Shown: one piece after another, positions 1-63,997 of the stretch | How the letters are laid out: each line of letters opens with the position of its first letter | How positions within the stretch are numbered: position 1 is the first letter of the stretch | NCBI GenBank assembly: GCA_001687465.1 | Contig: LVLI01000150.1 | Coordinates: forward strand, 55,308 to 119,307 | Source: Halocafeteria seosinensis | Taxonomy: Eukaryota; Sar; Bigyra; Bicosoecida | Direction: 5' to 3' | Length of the DNA: 64,000 nucleotides | Notes under the pieces: generated by a model | What the model saw: only the letters and a program-made list of their open reading frames with translations | Told to the model about the DNA's origin: nothing | Databases searched by the model: none | Made by a program: the position numbers and the translations under genes

Positions 1-181
1 TAAAGTTGTGTTTCAAAAATGTCGGCTTATTACCAAATTTCGGTTTCTTCTTTTTCTGACTCAGCACCCGCCCTTGATCCGAAATCCAATATCCATCAAT
101 ATACTCCTCAGAATTCATTCGTACCGGCGTCCAGTTTTCCACGTTTTCATGGTTTTCCAACATGTGATTACGACCCCACAT
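1..181 (-). CDS. NUMOD4-type HNH endonuclease, N-terminal part (cut by window edge)
   Basis: The minus strand is open from an ATG at 179-181 to the window edge, giving the first 60 residues. They contain the NUMOD4 pattern: E-x-W-T-P-V, then a tyrosine-rich stretch leading to ISDQGRVLS, matching the family form W-x-P-I...Y-x-V/I-S-x-x-G-R-V. In phages and large DNA viruses this DNA-binding motif sits upstream of an HNH nuclease domain and marks free-standing homing endonucleases; the nuclease part would lie outside the window. A second ATG six codons in is an alternative start. An A-rich element shared with other genes of this block lies directly upstream (183-199). The virus-like assignment of the block rests partly on this gene. 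Confidence 0.6.
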   Translation of the reverse strand, partial: MWGRNHMLENHENVENWTPVRMNSEEYIDGYWISDQGRVLSQKKKKPKFGNKPTFLKHNF

Positions 182-182
182 G

Positions 183-199
183 TTCAATCATTTTTGTGC
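183..199 (-). promoter_or_regulatory. A-rich upstream element, copy 1
   Basis: Read on the minus strand this is CACAAAAATGATTGAA, ending just before the ATG at 181. Similar elements stand before the starts at 2504, 3402 and 4462. The repeated placement suggests a viral promoter element; the resemblance to the AAAATTGA early motif of mimiviruses is only approximate. Confidence 0.4.
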
Positions 200-208
200 T
201 TTAGCCAA

Positions 209-1036
209 TCATCCCAACTTAAAGAATTGACGTGGATTCGCACCTTTAGGTTTTTCGGGAACGGTTTGCTTTGCCTCTTTGGCTCGTTGTTTCATGGATT
301 CCTTTGGTTTTGCCTTCGTATTCGTTTTTACTTTAAATCCCAACCGCTCTATTTGGTTGCTTCCTCGTCTGTTGATAATCGGTTGTTGCGACTTTGGTTG
401 TTCCGGCTGTGGCTGCAACATTTCCGGTGGAAGCATATCAGCGTATGGAATGGGATATTCCGGTTCATAATAAGAAGGCTGTGCATCGGGTTTTAGTTTT
501 GGCTCTTGAACTTGTTGAACCGGTTGTTGCTGTTCTCCTGAATCATCAAATTGAACTTGTTTGCGGGGTTTTTGTTCGGGTTCTGGCTGTGGTTGTGGTT
601 GTGATTGCTCTGCCTGACTTTTTCCCTTTTTCTGTTCCTCTGCCTTTTTTCGCTTCGCTTCAATCATTCTTGCCACAGCCTTCTTTTTCTTTTCCGACAT
701 TGGCTTCTTTTGCTTAAACAATCCATTATCAATCGGTTTGTCAAATTGTTTGGGTTCGGTTGGTTCAGCAGTTGGCTGTGTTGGTGGCTGTTGTACCGGT
801 TGGCTTTGTACCGACTGTGTTGGCTGACTTTCTATCTGACTGTCTTTGCTTTGACTTTTAGATTGCCGAATCAGACTGTTCAATTCTTTTAGCGACATGA
901 CCACCGATTTATCGTTAGATGGTTTGGATTGGGGTGGATTTTTGACTTGTTGGGCTTCCGGTTCTTCGTTGTTCGTTTCGACCTCTTGGTATTGTTCTAA
1001 ATATTTACTTAACTCGTCCAAATCTATTTCACTCAT
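209..1036 (-). CDS. Proline/glutamine-rich low-complexity protein
   Basis: This is a 275-residue intronless frame with a clear ATG. After an acidic N terminus (about residues 1-30) it is dominated by P, Q, E and K, with stretches of Q-P and S-Q repeats at about residues 60-100 and 145-215, and a basic C-terminal third. No fold or motif is recognisable, and it is probably largely disordered. It lies between the partial NUMOD4 gene and the lipase gene, all on the same strand. Such proteins occur as virion or scaffold components in large DNA viruses, but that role is a guess here. The coding call rests on the long open frame and its place in a compact same-strand array. Confidence 0.7.
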   Translation of the reverse strand: MSEIDLDELSKYLEQYQEVETNNEEPEAQQVKNPPQSKPSNDKSVVMSLKELNSLIRQSKSQSKDSQIESQPTQSVQSQPVQQPPTQPTAEPTEPKQFDKPIDNGLFKQKKPMSEKKKKAVARMIEAKRKKAEEQKKGKSQAEQSQPQPQPEPEQKPRKQVQFDDSGEQQQPVQQVQEPKLKPDAQPSYYEPEYPIPYADMLPPEMLQPQPEQPKSQQPIINRRGSNQIERLGFKVKTNTKAKPKESMKQRAKEAKQTVPEKPKGANPRQFFKLG

Positions 1037-1095
1037 CGTATATGTTGTCGTAAAATGTTGATACGTCTATCGTATCCATAGACGTAACGTTTCCA

Positions 1096-1833
1096 TTACT
1101 GTTCCAAGATGTCTAAGAAGGTACCCATAGTATGATTTGCCACCAAATTGTCACTGTTCAATGGCAATGTTTTTGTTTTGAAACGGGAGAAAGCGTTGCC
1201 AAGTGATACCGGATCCAATCGCCGACGCCATATGACTGTTTTGTTTCGCAATTCTGAATCGGTGAAAGACTGTCCAATGTTGGCAAGATTGATAGCGGGA
1301 TTGATGAGATGGAGTCGGTCAATCTGGCGAATCTCTTTACCGGCCATTAATGCACTGAAACCTCCAAGGCTATGCCCTATGACATTAATCCGATTTGGGT
1401 TGGTTTCCCGAATTGCACGTTTCAAAACAGGCATGTCTTTTTTAACCCTGCTGTTTTGATTGGTATGGCTAATCAACTCTAAATCCGATCCGACATCTTG
1501 AACATTGCTTGTGCCACGGATGGCCAACCACAACACACCATCTTGAAGGTACGTAGCCACATTGTCACTTGATAAATTTTGAAGATATTGATACCCGAAG
1601 ACTGTGGCTCGGCGTTCTGATTTGGGTCGGTACGATTGGTTCTGCATAACAAATCCAACTTTCTCCGATTGCGTTAGTTCGGGGACTTCATCTTGTCCTG
1701 TGGCTCGTTCAAACGTTTGAATGGATTTCTTACCGATTGCTCCAAGCGTTTGCATTTCATTTGTGTTTTTGATCCCGTTCAACAAAGTCTTGCCGGTTTC
1801 TTTTACCAATTTGCCCAGAAATTTCTTACTCAT
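1096..1833 (-). CDS. Class 3 lipase (alpha/beta hydrolase)
   Basis: A 245-residue intronless protein. The nucleophile elbow is unmistakable: NVIGHSLGG at about residues 150-158, with serine in G-H-S-L-G. Upstream are VLWLAIRGTS (about residues 100-110), the oxyanion strand typical of class 3 lipases, and a DVGSDLEL segment that follows it in the family. The Asp after LHLINPA and a late histidine (ANHTMG) could complete the triad. No signal peptide is visible; the N-terminal 60 residues are lysine-rich and of unknown fold. Class 3 lipases hydrolyse acylglycerols or phospholipids. In viruses such enzymes are proposed to act on host membranes, but nothing in the sequence tests this. Confidence 0.85.
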   Translation of the reverse strand: MSKKFLGKLVKETGKTLLNGIKNTNEMQTLGAIGKKSIQTFERATGQDEVPELTQSEKVGFVMQNQSYRPKSERRATVFGYQYLQNLSSDNVATYLQDGVLWLAIRGTSNVQDVGSDLELISHTNQNSRVKKDMPVLKRAIRETNPNRINVIGHSLGGFSALMAGKEIRQIDRLHLINPAINLANIGQSFTDSELRNKTVIWRRRLDPVSLGNAFSRFKTKTLPLNSDNLVANHTMGTFLDILEQ

Positions 1834-1845
1834 ATAGTTTATGGG

Positions 1846-2136
1846 TTATTCCTCGGATACTTCCGCCTTCTCTTCGTCGGCATCCTCGGTTTGCGATCCC
1901 TGATCCTTTTTTTCTTCGGGAGCAACCGGTTGGCTATTCCGGTGGGTTTTAATATTCATTGTTCCTTCCTTGCAGTTACAGTTAGACGCCATGTCATCGG
2001 TGCGACTAAACAACTTGTAGAGAGCGGGTGCGATAGAAATAGATCCGACACTTCCAACTATAATCACAGCAATTGTCCAAGGTTCGAGCATATACCAAAG
2101 TGAAAGAATTTTCTTCAGAGTTGATCGGCCATCCAT
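1846..2136 (-). CDS. Small single-pass membrane protein
   Basis: A 96-residue frame with one hydrophobic segment (about residues 17-42, PWTIAVIIVGSVGSISIAP) followed by a short cysteine-containing stretch (NCNC) and a strongly acidic C terminus rich in E, K and D. The start shown overlaps the end of the next gene upstream by 22 bp; a second ATG 15 codons in (2091) would remove the overlap. A membrane anchor with a cytosolic acidic tail is visible; the function is not. It lies 12 bp from the lipase gene on the same strand. Confidence 0.65.
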   Translation of the reverse strand: MDGRSTLKKILSLWYMLEPWTIAVIIVGSVGSISIAPALYKLFSRTDDMASNCNCKEGTMNIKTHRNSQPVAPEEKKDQGSQTEDADEEKAEVSEE

Positions 2137-2504
2137 CTGGCTTGACTGTCATAATGTTTCATGGCAATTATTTGTTTGTCCGGATAGCGAACATACGCAA
2201 TTTTTATCATATTATCTGGAATACAAGCCCAAATGGTTTGTAACGAGTCTAATCCATATTCCCGAACCGCCCACTTGATATCTGCATCCGTTTTCAACAT
2301 GTCCATACTCATATCACCATTTTCAGATTCATGTAACAGGAAATGGCGGTAATGATCAAATAATTCACTCTTTTTGTCCGCATCAGCAATAAAAACATGT
2401 TTAAGTGCTCTATAGAGGTGAATGAGTATGTATTTTGTTTTTCCGTCTTTATCCAAATGGAAAAAATGGGACGATTCTATTTTATCACAGGGAATGGATG
2501 TCAT
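2115..2504 (-). CDS. Uncharacterised 129-residue protein
   Basis: An intronless frame with an ATG preceded at 9 bp by the A-rich upstream element (2514-2538). Composition is that of a folded soluble protein with regular hydrophobic spacing, including an ILIHLYRALKHVF segment and a C-terminal QARWMADQL. I recognise no family. Neighbours on both sides overlap it or lie close on the same strand, as expected in a compact viral gene array. Confidence 0.65.
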   Translation of the reverse strand: MTSIPCDKIESSHFFHLDKDGKTKYILIHLYRALKHVFIADADKKSELFDHYRHFLLHESENGDMSMDMLKTDADIKWAVREYGLDSLQTIWACIPDNMIKIAYVRYPDKQIIAMKHYDSQARWMADQL

Positions 2505-2513
2505 GGTGGTTAT

Positions 2514-2538
2514 GTCAAAGTGTTCATCATTTTTGTGG
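2514..2538 (-). promoter_or_regulatory. A-rich upstream element, copy 2
   Basis: On the minus strand this reads CCACAAAAATGATG followed by AACACTTTGAC, 9 bp before the ATG at 2504. It matches the element at 3411-3435 over its full 25 bp with only a few changes, including the ACTTTGAC tail next to the start codon. Similarity in sequence and spacing suggests a shared promoter. Confidence 0.5.
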
Positions 2539-2544
2539 GATGGG

Positions 2545-2697
2545 TCAAATGATTAGCATGTGCAACAATTGATTGACAATAAGAGAGAGAAATAATAGAA
2601 CTTGAATCCGTTCATTTACCTCTTTGGGTAATTGTACTATCACGCCAAACAGTACAAAAAGACCAAACATGTTACACGTTGAACATAAATCAATCAT
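2545..2697 (-). CDS. Very small hydrophobic protein (50 residues)
   Basis: A 50-codon frame begins with ATGA overlapping the stop of the upstream gene: ATG at 2695-2697, upstream TGA at 2694-2696. It encodes two hydrophobic stretches, about residues 11-22 (FGLFVLFGVIVQ) and 31-50 (IQVLLFLSLIVNQLL), so it could be a membrane hairpin. The four-base overlap and same-strand packing favour a real gene, but its shortness leaves doubt. The upstream A-rich element also overlaps this start. Confidence 0.4.
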   Translation of the reverse strand: MIDLCSTCNMFGLFVLFGVIVQLPKEVNERIQVLLFLSLIVNQLLHMLII

Positions 2698-3098
2698 TTT
2701 TTGTGGGGTGGATGATTCCAATCATAAAGAAAATCATATTGATTCACGTCTCCCAAGACATGAGAATGTGTCTCGTCAATGTCAAATTGTGTCGTTCGTA
2801 TTCCGGCTCTATTTCGTGTAATGAACAATGGCAATCTTGGACTTAATAACTTAATCCGAGCACCATTTCCGTCCAAGGTTGTTTCAAAGGCATTGCCATC
2901 TAAACGAATTGGATTATCCACAATATATTGCCTTTGGTCAAACCGAAGTGTCATGCCCATATTGGGAATTAAATGATTGACTGCGCCTTGTATTTGTGTT
3001 GTATCGTCTGTTCCATTAAAGTCTCTGACATATAAAACACTGCGTGGCTCACTCTGTGCTCTGGATCGTCCAAACAGTTGGCCGATAAATGACAACAT
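2694..3098 (-). CDS. Beta-helix (pectate-lyase-like) N-terminal domain protein
   Basis: A 134-residue protein. Residues 23-45 follow the pattern at the start of parallel beta-helix proteins of the pectate lyase/GH28 class and phage tail spikes: VRDFNGTDDTTQIQGAVNHL, where the G-x-x-D-D-T segment precedes a short helix. It then continues with repeated short strands (LDGNGARIKL). The protein ends long before a full beta-helix could form, so it is either a short adaptor with only the capping motif or a truncated spike. In viruses these domains bind or cleave surface polysaccharide. No active-site residues can be assigned. Confidence 0.55.
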   Translation of the reverse strand: MLSFIGQLFGRSRAQSEPRSVLYVRDFNGTDDTTQIQGAVNHLIPNMGMTLRFDQRQYIVDNPIRLDGNAFETTLDGNGARIKLLSPRLPLFITRNRAGIRTTQFDIDETHSHVLGDVNQYDFLYDWNHPPHKK

Positions 3099-3138
3099 CT
3101 CTATACTCCAATAATAGAGAATCTGTTTTAACCGGTTT

Positions 3139-3402
3139 TTATCGTCGGTTATTTTTACATTTCTTGGACAAACGGTGAGTGTAAATACTGGATTTGCTCA
3201 CCAGTGTGCCACACAACTTACAAGGGACTTGGTTCTTTTGGATTTCTTCGGCATATCGGCATTTGAACGTTTTGATGTGGTCATGCATACTTTTACGTTT
3301 GAGTGTTGCTCCACAACGGTCACAATTGACTATTTCTTCGCCCGACTCGCCTGAAGTGATAATACTGTTCTTGTAAAAAATGTTCCCACTTTGATCGGAC
3401 AT
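3139..3402 (-). CDS. Small protein with two C2HC zinc-finger motifs
   Basis: An 87-residue protein with two similar motifs: CDRCGATLKRKSMHDHIKTF-x-C at about residues 27-48 and CKLCGTLVSKSSIYTHRLSK-x-C at about 60-81. Each has C-x2-C, then H, then C spacing, so each can bind one zinc ion. The linker and C terminus are lysine/arginine-rich, suggesting nucleic-acid binding. The start is preceded at 8 bp by the A-rich element at 3411-3435. Small zinc-finger proteins of this kind are frequent in large DNA viruses; no orthologue can be named. Confidence 0.75.
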   Translation of the reverse strand: MSDQSGNIFYKNSIITSGESGEEIVNCDRCGATLKRKSMHDHIKTFKCRYAEEIQKNQVPCKLCGTLVSKSSIYTHRLSKKCKNNRR

Positions 3403-3410
3403 AGCGGTTT

Positions 3411-3435
3411 GTCAAAGTCCATTCATTTTTTGTGG
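3411..3435 (-). promoter_or_regulatory. A-rich upstream element, copy 3
   Basis: Minus strand: CCACAAAAAATGAATGGACT followed by TTGAC, ending 8 bp before the ATG at 3402. It is near-identical to copy 2 at 2514-2538 and shares its first half with the element before the start at 4462 (4480-4493). Confidence 0.5.
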
Positions 3436-3440
3436 CTCAG

Positions 3441-3851
3441 TTAAAATTTGGGTTTAATGAATTTGTTGCGTTTGATCCGAAACGTCTTTAATTTCCGTGC
3501 GTTGTGGATTTCCGAACAACCCAATACCATTCCAGTCCGAATGTACGGAAGTTCATTGCGTTCCAATTTTATGATTTGGGCATGAATTTTTCCAAGGACA
3601 ATAGTGACAAGACATACATAAATGGGATCATCTATTGCTTTTTCAGCCAATCTATCTAGCGATGGATGATTTATGGTATAGGTGCTCTCGTCCAATGATT
3701 TGTACATAAAGACATCCGTCTCGCAGGGGGGAAAATACAGTACTTCAAAACAGGTATGGCTGTCCAGTAGTTTTTGTTCGGTGTTCGCCACCAGCCAATG
3801 CACGGCATCATATAATACTTGATCTTGTTGATAACTGTTTAAAAAATCCAT
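3441..3851 (-). CDS. Uncharacterised 136-residue protein
   Basis: The frame is open further upstream to 3968, but that part lies inside the tRNA-Asn gene, so the ATG at 3849-3851 (MDFLNSYQQDQ) is taken as the start. The protein looks folded and soluble, with a hydrophobic VCLVTIVLGKIHAQI helix at about residues 80-95 and a basic C terminus ending in KPKF. No known family is recognised. The start is preceded by ATTGG-TATAGAG, which resembles the sequence before the start at 3098 and may be a second promoter type. Confidence 0.6.
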   Translation of the reverse strand: MDFLNSYQQDQVLYDAVHWLVANTEQKLLDSHTCFEVLYFPPCETDVFMYKSLDESTYTINHPSLDRLAEKAIDDPIYVCLVTIVLGKIHAQIIKLERNELPYIRTGMVLGCSEIHNARKLKTFRIKRNKFIKPKF

Positions 3852-3901
3852 CCTTTCTCTATACCAATGATATAAAGAAATGGTTCTAAGTAACAAAGTC
3901 A

Positions 3902-3974
3902 CGATTCCACAGAGATTCGAACTCTGATCCTTCAGATTAACAGTCTGACGCTCTACCAATTGAGCCATGGAATC
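3902..3974 (-). tRNA. tRNA-Asn (GUU)
   Basis: A complete 73-nt cloverleaf on the minus strand. The acceptor stem is GATTCCA paired with TGGAATC, with G as discriminator. The D arm contains GCTCAATTGGTAGAGC. The anticodon stem CAGA/TCTG encloses CTGTTAA, giving anticodon GTT. The T arm is AGAGTTCGAATCTCT. There is no intron and no encoded CCA. It lies in the gap between two virus-like genes; tRNA genes are common cargo of large DNA viruses and also common insertion points, so origin is open. Confidence 0.93.
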
Positions 3975-3994
3975 AGTGGGAATAGATCGTTTGC

Positions 3995-4462
3995 CTATTC
4001 ATCGTCATCCACAAGATATATACTATCCTCATCGGAATCGCTAATTTCATCTGGACTGGGGTAAGAAGATAGTTCATTGAAGGATAACTCATTAAAGAGA
4101 TACTGTAGTTTCTTACACAACCAGCCATTCTTCTCCACTTCACTCTCTTCAAGTTTTTGTTTTAGCCATTTCAGATAGTCGGGGGCTTTCTGCATGACCT
4201 TCCGCATAGACTTGCCCTCGTACAACCCGAAAGGCAACCTTTGATCGGCCTTGCCAAAAATCATTTGCAGTTCTTTCATAAAGAGGGTTGAACCAAACTC
4301 TTCTTCTTTATTTTCCGTCAGTAATTTCCACACATAAGCGGGTTTGGTCTTACAGATGTGGCCAATCGTTTCGCCCTTGTACTGGCCGAAGTTGAATGTA
4401 TGGTTGAAGATATCCTGATCCGTGGTTTTGCTTTGACTCTTTTGTTGTGGCTGGTTGGACAT
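3995..4462 (-). CDS. ExoX-C/DUF3820-like protein with two repeated motifs
   Basis: A 155-residue protein carrying two copies of the same motif: FNFGQYKGETIGHICKTKPA-YVWKLL (about residues 22-47) and LPFGLYEGKSMRKVMQKAPD-YLKWL (about 75-100). The pattern F-G-x-Y-K/E-G-x-(x)n-P-x-Y-x-x-W-L is that of the exonuclease-X C-terminal-like/DUF3820 domain, found beside nucleases and alone in phages and giant viruses. No DEDD exonuclease core is present, so this is likely a DNA-associated accessory protein. The C terminus is a very acidic tail (DSDEDSIYLVDDDE). The A-rich element lies 17 bp upstream at 4480-4493. Confidence 0.65.
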   Translation of the reverse strand: MSNQPQQKSQSKTTDQDIFNHTFNFGQYKGETIGHICKTKPAYVWKLLTENKEEEFGSTLFMKELQMIFGKADQRLPFGLYEGKSMRKVMQKAPDYLKWLKQKLEESEVEKNGWLCKKLQYLFNELSFNELSSYPSPDEISDSDEDSIYLVDDDE

Positions 4463-4479
4463 GATTACCTATAACCACC

Positions 4480-4493
4480 TCCATTCATTTTTT
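4480..4493 (-). promoter_or_regulatory. A-rich upstream element, copy 4 (partial)
   Basis: Minus strand AAAAAATGAATGGA, identical to the first half of the element at 3411-3435, 17 bp before the ATG at 4462. The ACTTTGAC tail is not kept here. Confidence 0.35.
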
Positions 4494-4550
4494 TCTATTC
4501 GGTTTTTTGCGAAAACATTGTCTTAAAATAATTCGTTCTAGATAGTCATA

Positions 4551-5372
4551 ATGACCACCACCGTACCAACCGTACCCGATTGTCGTCAATTGAAACGGTA
4601 TAGTGACATTCAATTGCTGTATCTAAGTCAAATTTATATACACGAACGTTTCCTAAACAGAAAGAAACTCATCCGATGGTTAAAAATGACCTATTATATC
4701 TACAAACACCGTAGCCATTTGTTCTATTTGTCTTATGGTATTTATGAACTCGCTCTGATCACCGGATTTTACTATGGATCAACTGAGATCATGCAATATG
4801 CGTATAACGTATGTCCTCCAAGATGTTCCCCGCTCGATTGTTTTGATTGTCGGGAAAATTGCACACATTTCTTATCCAAATGTATTAGCGACCTGCCGAC
4901 CATTCAACTCAGTTCAGACCAATTTCTACATGCTCTACATTTTTTAGAGGATTATTCTCCTTTTTCCCTTGATTTCTATATCACAATATTCAGTCGAACC
5001 GGCTCATCCCCTGATGTCATTCCATCCAATCTAACCTTTTACTACATGATCTTTTTGGCTCATTTAAAGTACTATGATCTGGCTGTTGTTGTCCGATTTT
5101 ATGAACTGTATCCTGACATCCGGAACATGTTGCGGAAACAACCGATGTGGCAGGGGGCACAGTCCCATCAAATACCTAGAGGATGTATAATCAATGACAA
5201 ATATTTAAAAATTGACTATACACAATTGAAACAGGGACAATTTGATTGTGTGGTTTGCTGGGAATCAGAGTATCCTCGGCGAGAGGTATGTTCCAACAAT
5301 GAGGAACATTGTGTCTGTGATCAGTGTTTGGATCAAATAGTACAATTGTATTGTCCTCTCTGTAATCAATAG
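4551..5372 (+). CDS. C-terminal RING-type finger protein
   Basis: A 273-residue intronless protein, the only plus-strand gene of the virus-like block. The C-terminal 45 residues form a RING-like zinc site: CVVC at about 230, C-S-N-N-E-E-H-C in the middle, C-x2-C (CDQC), and a final CPLC three residues from the end. Position at the extreme C terminus and spacing resemble viral RING E3 ubiquitin ligases. The first 200 residues are tyrosine- and leucine-rich with helical repeats and a small cysteine cluster (CPPRCSPLDCFDCRENC). A role in host protein ubiquitination is inferred from the finger only. Confidence 0.7.
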   Translation: MTTTVPTVPDCRQLKRYSDIQLLYLSQIYIHERFLNRKKLIRWLKMTYYIYKHRSHLFYLSYGIYELALITGFYYGSTEIMQYAYNVCPPRCSPLDCFDCRENCTHFLSKCISDLPTIQLSSDQFLHALHFLEDYSPFSLDFYITIFSRTGSSPDVIPSNLTFYYMIFLAHLKYYDLAVVVRFYELYPDIRNMLRKQPMWQGAQSHQIPRGCIINDKYLKIDYTQLKQGQFDCVVCWESEYPRREVCSNNEEHCVCDQCLDQIVQLYCPLCNQ

Positions 5373-5374
5373 AG

Positions 5375-5686
5375 TTAAGTCGTGGCGGGAATCAAAAATG
5401 CTTCTATTTTACTATGCACCGTTTTACTTGAGCCGAGATTACCGTTGTCATTTATTTCAGTGATAAAGTCAATATTTTGTGTGGTGTTGGTTAAAATGGT
5501 AAAAGAATAATACATAGTCAAATCATTCTCTGATCCAATAATATGGGTGGTCGGGTTTATTCTTGAGGCATCGCTGTTGTTGTTAAATGATTCCGCTACA
5601 GGGGCAAAAACATCTCCAACATCATCTGTTGCTTTATGAATGACAAATATATTACCGCCGGTATTCACATAATCCGACCAAACCAA
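5375..5686 (-). pseudogene. 5'-truncated beta-rich protein at the edge of the virus-like block
   Basis: This frame encodes about 100 residues of a beta-strand-rich protein (alternating hydrophobic and polar residues, many N, T, D), ending SKIEAFLIPATT. It has no ATG at its natural beginning: an in-frame stop lies about 9 bases before the first codon shown, and the next methionine is in the middle. The 3-bp spacing to the RING gene shows it belongs to the block. The simplest reading is a gene cut through at its 5' end where the inserted DNA stops. The chain resembles trimeric fibre or capsid-decoration proteins in style, but no family can be named. Confidence 0.5.
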
Positions 5687-5714
5687 TAGAATTCAATTCC
5701 CTGTTCTCTGTGCA

Positions 5715-6157
5715 AACCATCTTCAACCACCTGTATCCACTCAAATGAATCACTTCCCCTTATCTTGTGCGTTCACGTATTCACTTTGCTTCAGTGATTT
5801 ATATGATGATTCGACATATAACCAACCCTGTTTATAAGTAAACCAAACTTGGGGCAAGGTTCACTTCGGGCTCAGGAAGATCCTTCAGTTCACACGACCA
5901 CCCTCTATAAACACTCAAATAATTCACTTCCCCTTATCTCACCCATTTACGCATTACCTTCGCTTCAGTGATTTATATGATGATTCAATACATAACCAGC
6001 CCTGTTCATGGATAGAGGAAACTTGGGGCAAGGTTCACGACGGTATCAGAAAGATCCTCCAGTTCAAACGACTACCCCTATGCACCCAAATAAATCAATC
6101 TTTTCCGTTATGCTAAGCCAAAATATAATCACTGTGCTTCAGTGATTATCATGATTC
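5715..6157. repeat. 174-bp tandem repeat, about 2.5 copies
   Basis: Three landmarks recur at a constant 174-bp interval: CACTTCCCCTTATC at 5751 and 5925, TTGGGGCAAGGTTCAC at about 5850 and 6023, and CTTCAGTGATT at about 5790, 5964 and 6138. Copies differ by scattered substitutions, so the duplication is not recent. The array begins right after the truncated gene at the edge of the virus-like block. It has no coding potential. Confidence 0.8.
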
Positions 6158-6599
6158 CTTGGGATCTTATCATAGACTTCGCAAATAGGACGGGGACGAC
6201 TGCCAAAGAAAAGAACTTAGCCGGACAACAGGTTGGCATTCAGGGGACTGTGAAGGGAAACAAAAACACCTCCATCAGGACATGTTCTCCGGTCTATACA
6301 CACCTTTTTCAATCCAAACAAAAATAGAAAACCACAACATCTGAATCAGAAACATTCACTTATAAACTCTGTTGTCTTTCTTTCAGTACAATCGCTGAAT
6401 GAAATCAGTAGAACGTAGCCAAGCAAATACGTAGTGACTCGTACTTTTCAAATCAGACGAACTCAACTAATCTAGCCAGTACGATTGAAGTTATACCGTC
6501 GGAACTTCACAAGTCAACTTGACACCGTCGCTAGGCACGTAGGCATGGCTATTTCGTTTGTCGAACCCCCGTGAGACACGGTCGTGTAGGGGTCAATTT
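6158..6599. other. Gap without recognisable genes
   Basis: About 440 bp between the 174-bp repeat and the next repeat. Only short frames occur and none shows family signal or codon bias. A promoter or degenerate repeat cannot be excluded. Confidence 0.4.
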
Positions 6600-6800
6600 G
6601 TGGAATTCGGGTGAGGTTCTCTAGTGGGTATATCGTCGGGTTTGGCGGTCGGGTTCGGTTGAGTGAGGAATCACTTTGCGTATTTCGTCTGACTATTTCG
6701 TCGGATTTTGCGGTCGTATAGCGGTATTTTGGTGAAACAGATAGGTGACGTTGTAGGGGGTATATCGTCGGGTTTTGCGGTCGGGTGAATCCGATTGGTT
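6600..6800. repeat. GGGTATATCGTCGGGTTT repeat, period about 132 bp
   Basis: The segment GGGTATATCGTCGGGTTT followed by G/T-GCGGTCGGGT occurs at about 6625 and again at about 6757. A more diverged version (TTTCGTCGGATTTTGCGGTC) lies between them at about 6702. The repeat is GT-rich and directly precedes a MAP kinase relic; it may have broken that gene. Confidence 0.6.
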
Positions 6801-6848
6801 CTTCCATCTGGTGTTATATAGGAATCTACTCTATTGACTACTCTCCTT

Positions 6849-6971
6849 GAGCCTGTTTGTAGAGAATCCTTCAACTTTCAATTCGAAGAAAAATTATCCC
6901 GTGACGTGCCTCAACTGCGTGGCAGGGAGCTCATATTCGAGGAAATGCAGAGTATGGCAAATGCTAGTTGA
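6849..6971 (+). pseudogene. MAP kinase C-terminal relic
   Basis: A short frame ending with TGA at 6969-6971 encodes the C-terminal tail that follows the kinase domain of MAP kinases: SFNFQFEEKL, then VPQLRGRELIFEEMQSM. This corresponds to the F-x-F-x-x-E...L-x-x-L-I-F-E-E-M tail of ERK-type kinases and to the end of the two intact kinases downstream (PFNFEFE... and PFNFDFE...). No kinase core is found upstream; that space is filled by repeats. It is therefore the remains of a third tandem copy whose 5' part was lost or displaced, or the last exon of a gene interrupted by repeat expansion or the nearby insertion. Confidence 0.7.
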
Positions 6972-8028
6972 TAGAGCTAAGACCTGGTGTCGTAGGCGAA
7001 TGGCTAAGTTACCCAGAGCAATATACGCAATGCCACAGCTGCAAGTGTTCCCTCACGGCGCATGTCAGCAAGGCTGCAGGAACAGCGGACCCGTCGCTGC
7101 TTAACACGGGCGCATACCGCTCCTCGTTAAGAGGATGCGGTCAACTTCCCGGCCGGTGGGCTATCTGTCACATTTGTGTGTGTGCTACAAATTGTAGCAA
7201 CTTTAGCACTCACCTGCAACGAGAAGTATGCCTCTTAGGCACTCGTACTTCCGCAAGAGTCTATTTACAATGTAGCACAGGGTCTGAGGTTGCGTATCCA
7301 ATGATAACTCTCAAGGTAGTCAAATTGTGATGCTGGAATACCTCCGCATCCCGTGCAGCCAGATCGTCGAGTCATCGACTGTACATGTACGAGAGGTAAC
7401 TCCGACCAACCACTTACAGTAGTACAAAGTATAGCCGAGTACACACATTAACGGTATCCCTTCTTGATAGCTATGCTCCCACAGTACACTACCGTCGTAT
7501 GAAACACGAAGATATCTATCAACACACATGTACAAGATGTAGGGAGCAACGACATCGAAGCACCGTGTCAGTTGGACGAGGTGTGAAGCCAGGGGTAGAA
7601 CGGGGCTTCATATGACACGTGAGGTACCAATCGTACCAATCCTGCCTACACAGTGAGGAAAGTTAAGAAGCAGATTACCGAAGCGACCTGAATCTCCAAA
7701 AAGAGTTATATTCACATATTGCGCGCCTTGGGGGAGGAGTATCCTCGGCGATAGAGGCGTCCCTGGAGCTCTTAGTTGTGGATGCGATTTGGATCCACAG
7801 TGCCCACCCTATTTACGCAGCTAATTTACTTTTCCATAAGAGCAACAGCGCTATTATTATCATAGGGGTGCTTTGAAGGATTTCTTGACGCCATTGAGTC
7901 CCGTACTACTGCTCTGTGCGGGCTCATATAGCGTTGAACAGAGGTAGAGCGTCTGGCGCCTTGGTCTTGTCCCGCCGGTGAACCCGCTGTTCGTGCGAAA
8001 AAGTGGTCAACGAATCGTTTGAGAAACA
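6972..8028. other. Intergenic region upstream of the MAP kinase pair
   Basis: About 1.05 kb without a convincing gene. It contains the hairpin-plus-TG repeat described separately (7092-7184). Short frames here show no family signal. The proximal part presumably holds the promoter of the first kinase. Confidence 0.5.
7092..7184. repeat. Dispersed hairpin + TG repeat, left copy
   Basis: This segment and 63855-63955 share CGTCGCTGCTTA, GGGCG-ATACCGCTCCTCGTT, GATGCGGTC, and CTATCTGTCACATTTGTGTG or its close variant. In this copy ACCGC-T-CCTC-GTTAA-GAGG-AT-GCGGT (7116-7141) can fold into a hairpin. The TG tract is short here. A mobile or subtelomeric repeat family is likely. Confidence 0.7.

Positions 8029-63940: not shown

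Positions 63941-63955
<15 letters not shown>
63855..63955. repeat. Dispersed hairpin + TG repeat, right copy
   Basis: Second copy of the element at 7092-7184. The outer stem ACCGC/GCGGT is identical, while the inner stem differs: TCGT pairs with ACGA here instead of CCTC with GAGG. The TG tract that follows is much longer. Confidence 0.7.

Positions 63956-63997
<42 letters not shown>

Follow-up and report, generated by a model that had tools for sequence, protein, structure and literature searches.

The window analysed here, a stretch of 64,000 nucleotides of the Halocafeteria seosinensis genome (C103:55308-119307, a window coordinate being the C103 coordinate minus 55307), opens with a block of small genes that differs from the DNA following it, which raises the question of what this block is: a viral insertion, a member of a new lineage or a product of chimeric assembly. 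The assembly searched is eukaryotic (30.6 Mb in 605 contigs), and the V-ATPase B gene and other genes of the window identify the host DNA as eukaryotic. Near the contig end, we noticed a perfect TG dinucleotide run of 27.5 copies (window 63943-63997). Between window positions 1 and 5372 its genes are tightly packed, lack introns and, with a single exception, lie on the minus strand, and the GC content of the block is 40.5%, against 47.4% in the remaining window; this is beneath the minimum of the host 1-kb windows (43.5%, standard deviation 1.8%). The original prediction had described this organisation and the AT-richness, and had proposed an endogenous viral element, a proposal that our analysis supports: very probably, an endogenous Polinton/Polinton-like virus (PLV) family is present in multiple copies in the nuclear genome, and the block forms part of one of them, an 11.5-kb non-autonomous element with internal deletions that is most likely a recombinant of two elements unless the assembler joined them.

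The limits of the block had to be redrawn. Predicted to span window positions 1-5690 and to be joined to a chromosome arm, it is instead an element inside a host contig, with host DNA and host genes on both sides. In C103:1-56000, host genes could be read up to ~50.6 kb and are followed by a compact run of small genes, and comparison of nine ends placed the termini of the whole element at C103:50665-62149 (11,485 bp), away from the contig end. Its right part (6,842 bp, window 1-6842), delimited by termini, inverted repeats and copies, lies in the window, and another 4,643 bp, on the left, precede the window. Two stretches, C103:50.7-51.1 kb and window 6504-6788, form inverted terminal repeats with 90% identity across 285 bp. 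The complete right repeat (window 6504-6842) is 95% identical to the end of a sister element on contig C147 and ~90% identical to the left repeat, and its outer end reads 5'-AGTAG inwards, the outer terminus in most of the nine compared ends. Further inside, 174-bp tandem repeats (window 5738-6155) are also present beside the integrase end of the C147 element.

The genes kept in the window are on the minus strand unless stated otherwise. The window cuts a NUMOD4-HNH homing-type endonuclease, of which it holds the N-terminal part (window 1-181; 225 aa in full, C103:54811-55488; Pfam NUMOD4 1.7e-6, PHROG HNH 1.9e-21). It is followed by a Q/P-rich protein of 275 aa, conserved in sister elements and with no function assigned (209-1036; 80% aa identity to the C147 copy, dN/dS 0.09), by a lipase-like alpha/beta-hydrolase of 245 aa with sixteen matches in the same genome (1096-1833; Pfam Hydrolase_4 2.2e-5 and Lipase_3 6e-4, both under the curated cut-offs; dN/dS 0.10), by a small 96-aa protein whose N-terminal region looks hydrophobic by eye (1846-2136; 85% aa identity on C147, dN/dS 0.19), by a 129-aa protein with no function assigned (2115-2504; 91% aa identity on C147, dN/dS 0.16), by a 134-aa ORF without counterpart or DNA match in the compared copies (2694-3098) and by an 87-aa zinc-finger protein, weakly matched by Pfam CEP104_ZnF (2.9e-5) and conserved on C147 (3139-3402). 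A conserved protein of ~136 aa comes next (3441-3851), with its start inferred from the C147 copy; the 175-aa ORF listed at 3441-3968 was rejected in that form, as its start falls inside a tRNA gene, and was shortened accordingly. This tRNA-Asn (GTT; 3901-3975, ARAGORN) is also present in the C147 copy (L029:4699-4772, 92% identical); a DNA search of the genome, which a diverged host tRNA-Asn could escape, gave no match beyond the two element copies. A 155-aa protein with two ExoX-like_C repeats (3995-4462; Pfam 6.3e-12) has copies genome-wide. The only plus-strand gene (4551-5372) encodes a 273-aa protein, 93% identical to its C147 copy and with five matches in the same genome, whose RING-like character is read from a C-terminal cysteine pattern, Pfam giving no match. 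The run ends with the C-terminal remnant of a fibre-like gene (5375-5689; ~430 aa when intact), which matches C538:4889-5204 at 85% and C147 at 70% DNA identity; the intact fibre-like copies carry Phage_T7_tail (Pfam 5.6e-8). The protein families and the tRNA named in the original prediction are thus all recovered, with the RING assignment standing as a cysteine pattern and not as a family match.

The remaining genes of the window are all open, and sister copies of element genes reach 83-93% aa identity in the same genome. dN/dS lies at 0.09-0.29 in seven of the eight measurable genes and at 0.41, at low divergence, in the RING-like gene. Judging from these frames and ratios, the window genes are undamaged and purifying selection acts on most of them, the selection measured being that of the lineage and not that of the window copy.

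The nature of the element becomes clear from its fuller relatives. The C147 copy runs from a left end at ~1.1 kb to a repeat block ending at 27.8 kb (~26.7 kb), and carries, one after another, genes for an FkbM-type methyltransferase, small proteins, a penton candidate, VLTF3 (3.7e-9), an ATPase, a GIY-YIG-like protein (recognised by eye), a 556-aa protein, the capsid, an endonuclease, the lipase-to-RING run as in the window, T7-tail-type fibres, PolB and an rve integrase (Pfam 1.2e-9, above cut-off, with a weak chromodomain match). The ATPase has a weak Pox_A32 match (0.0073, under cut-off), a Walker A motif conserved in 12 copies and a position near the capsid gene, on which basis the sister copies are predicted to encode an A32-like packaging ATPase. 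The PolB candidate (1,376 aa) contains the motifs YYDCSNLYG, NNSVFGKT and TDTDS, with an EndoVII-like region as its only Pfam match, and seems to be of the protein-primed type, an assignment made by motifs and not by family match. An AlphaFold model of the capsid, built from ten family members (pTM 0.65, pLDDT 62), was compared with double jelly-roll capsids and gave Z scores of 20-23 with PBCV-1, 17 with Sputnik, 16 with mavirus and 15 with PRD1, so that the major capsid protein of the sister copies is predicted to adopt this fold; searching the PDB by sequence, with the capsid profile and PolB as queries, returned nothing informative. The penton (minor capsid) candidate (267 aa) adjoins VLTF3 and has a poor structure model (pLDDT 31.5). 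A maturation cysteine protease found no match among the proteins scanned, several of which are without assignment. The capsid, ATPase, VLTF3, PolB and integrase of the sister copies place the endogenous viral element in the Polinton/PLV kind.

Capsid matches occur at some 16 places in the genome, from 77% down to ~31% identity to the reference copy, which indicates that several lineages share it. Divergent PLV-like copies, with capsids 31-47% identical to those of the window family, were observed on C55, C88, C367, C429, C440, C46 and C2 (L041-L047, L059-L064). Scans of IMG/VR with the lipase, RING-like protein and PolB, and with the ATPase and the capsid each as single sequence and as profile, gave no confirmed relative, single-protein scans reaching only close relatives. 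We also observed that C147:1-45550 (L028-L032) holds two family copies, inverted on one 45.5-kb contig; the second is truncated, and the two meet near 27.8 kb within a PolB gene that is itself truncated, by a real rearrangement or an assembly effect.

DNA comparison with C147 and C538 located a first junction at C103:54532-54565, where the penton gene is joined to the capsid gene and ~5.7 kb are gone; residues 1-102 of the capsid remain at C103:54534-54839, just upstream of the window. At the second junction (window 5689-5738), the end of the fibre gene is joined to the 174-bp repeats of the right end, and ~10.8 kb are missing relative to C147: the rest of the fibre gene, a second fibre gene, PolB and the integrase. 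The window copy has no capsid, ATPase, polymerase or integrase gene of its own and keeps the 102 capsid residues and the fibre remnant. The original prediction had reported no capsid, ATPase or polymerase gene, which is right for the window, the capsid remnant lying upstream of it, and had considered a new lineage devoid of them. The two deletions explain this absence and, since the missing genes sit in sister copies, the comparison identifies the window copy as an internally deleted, non-autonomous Polinton/PLV element rather than a new capsid-less lineage. Different stretches of the element have different closest relatives (one C147 copy at 87% in one of them, the other copy at 81% in another part), so that the family is mosaic.

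From its gene set, the ancestor would have used protein priming at its inverted ends for replication, and an rve integrase would have inserted it with a 6-bp target duplication, as also suggested by a mini-element on C75. This element (2,504 bp, C75:116470-118973; L065, L066) has AGTAG ends, both of the type found at the right end of the window copy, and is bordered on both sides by CAAGAC, a perfect 6-bp target-site duplication; it is presumably a miniature non-autonomous derivative, and its related ends and duplication support Polinton-type integration of the family. In the window copy, one deletion took the morphogenesis block and another the fibre-polymerase-integrase block and, because both were lost, the deleted copy would be able to move only in trans, with proteins from intact relatives. 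The lipase may have a role in entry, as suggested for PLV lipases (PMC4642659).

Compared with known systems, the family resembles Polintons/Mavericks in its protein-primed-type PolB, rve integrase and inverted terminal repeats, and in the 6-bp duplication on the related C75 mini-element, rve integrases typically giving target duplications of this length (PMC12220804). Unlike them, the window copy has no polymerase, integrase or target duplication, and no maturation protease was recognised in the scanned family proteins. PLVs are without this protease (PMC4642659) and share with the family capsid, ATPase, lipase, GIY-YIG and HNH genes (PMC4642659, PMC10120064), although the family described here carries an rve integrase, which a single member of the first set of PLVs possessed (Yutin et al. 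2015, PMC4642659), and the window copy is reduced to 11.5 kb; endogenous PLVs of 15-30 kb, some with distinct GC, are common in protist genomes (Bellas et al. 2023, PMC10120064). Cryptophyte PLVs (PMC12220804) likewise combine tRNA genes, HNH endonucleases, lineage-specific expansion and 6-bp duplications with an rve integrase, their tRNAs being His, Leu or Arg whereas ours is Asn. OmPLV of Oxyrrhis marina (PMC12721341) is similarly an endogenous PLV, of ~25 kb, with fragmented copies in low-GC regions, but differs in carrying Y-rec and a fusion of helicase and PolB. Lipase, HNH/NUMOD4, tRNA cargo and fragmentation are therefore already known in such elements, of which the window copy is a clear but ordinary example.

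The two ends of the window copy belong to different subtypes, and the 6-bp sequences beside them, CCCGAC at the left and CTCCTT at the right, do not form a target-site duplication. Besides the window copy, both ends of one element were seen only for C75, other copies being known from one end, and it is possible that left and right ends of the family normally differ in subtype. At the right boundary, window 6842 is a precise element terminus, and the host flank begins with a 42-codon 3' remnant of a host gene (window 6843-6968, plus strand). From exactly 6843, this flank and C483 are 99% identical for 224 bp; on C483 the reading frame interrupted in the window stays open, the unbroken gene having other sequence at the position of the join. 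A by-eye reading of this gene as a protein kinase was not confirmed by Pfam. The left flank is unique, with no second copy and no empty site found in the genome, and does not contain the missing part of the gene, so the flanks do not make up one interrupted locus. We additionally observed a ~140-bp host repeat at window 7045-7184 (C103:62352-62491), with ~40 copies of 97-99% identity; one copy lies 1 kb outside the C147 element, and many copies stand at contig ends, so that the repeat probably breaks the assembly.

Because the end subtypes differ, no target duplication is present and the flanks do not represent one locus, the window copy is probably either the product of recombination between two insertions or a join that the assembler made through an element, both of which fit. 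The chimera considered in the original prediction survives as the suggestion that halves of two insertions were brought together, by recombination or mis-assembly. We tentatively propose a genuine recombinant, in which two host loci were brought together by exchange between PLVs whose ends differ in subtype, with the elements serving as points of chromosome rearrangement in a compact protist genome and the 11.5-kb and 2.5-kb deleted derivatives having been moved in trans by autonomous relatives. That the family is real but its 11.5-kb arrangement an artefact, the assembler having joined the two halves through shared sequence, appears rather unlikely: the same end and flank data would agree with it, as would the odd head-to-head pair on C147, but both internal junctions are deletions when set against copies of no more than ~70-87% identity, something an assembler is unlikely to produce, the composition of the host DNA is even on either side, and the remnants of truncated genes appear biological.

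It is improbable that the element is a functional satellite, with lipase, RING, endonuclease and tRNA kept for a benefit to element or host, for example against other viruses; although the open genes, the dN/dS values well under 1 and the existence of the 2.5-kb mini-element would suit such a role, the selection measured belongs to the whole lineage, and a further copy sharing these deletions was not observed. That the element is an integrated fragment of a giant virus (Nucleocytoviricota) is highly improbable. Giant viruses too have VLTF3 and an A32-like ATPase and provide the closest structural matches to the capsid, but the element does not exceed ~27 kb and has inverted terminal repeats, a PolB with an EndoVII-like region and an rve integrase; a relative shows a 6-bp duplication, and the copies read contain no excess of giant-virus genes.

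The internally deleted Polinton/PLV copy removes a possible claim of a new capsid-less viral lineage and shows an endogenous PLV decaying to non-autonomous forms with ends and cargo kept, in a genome where this decayed copy occurs beside more complete ones and where several capsid lineages have diverged (31-77% identity to the reference copy). If the recombination is true, it would be a case of PLV elements rearranging host chromosomes.
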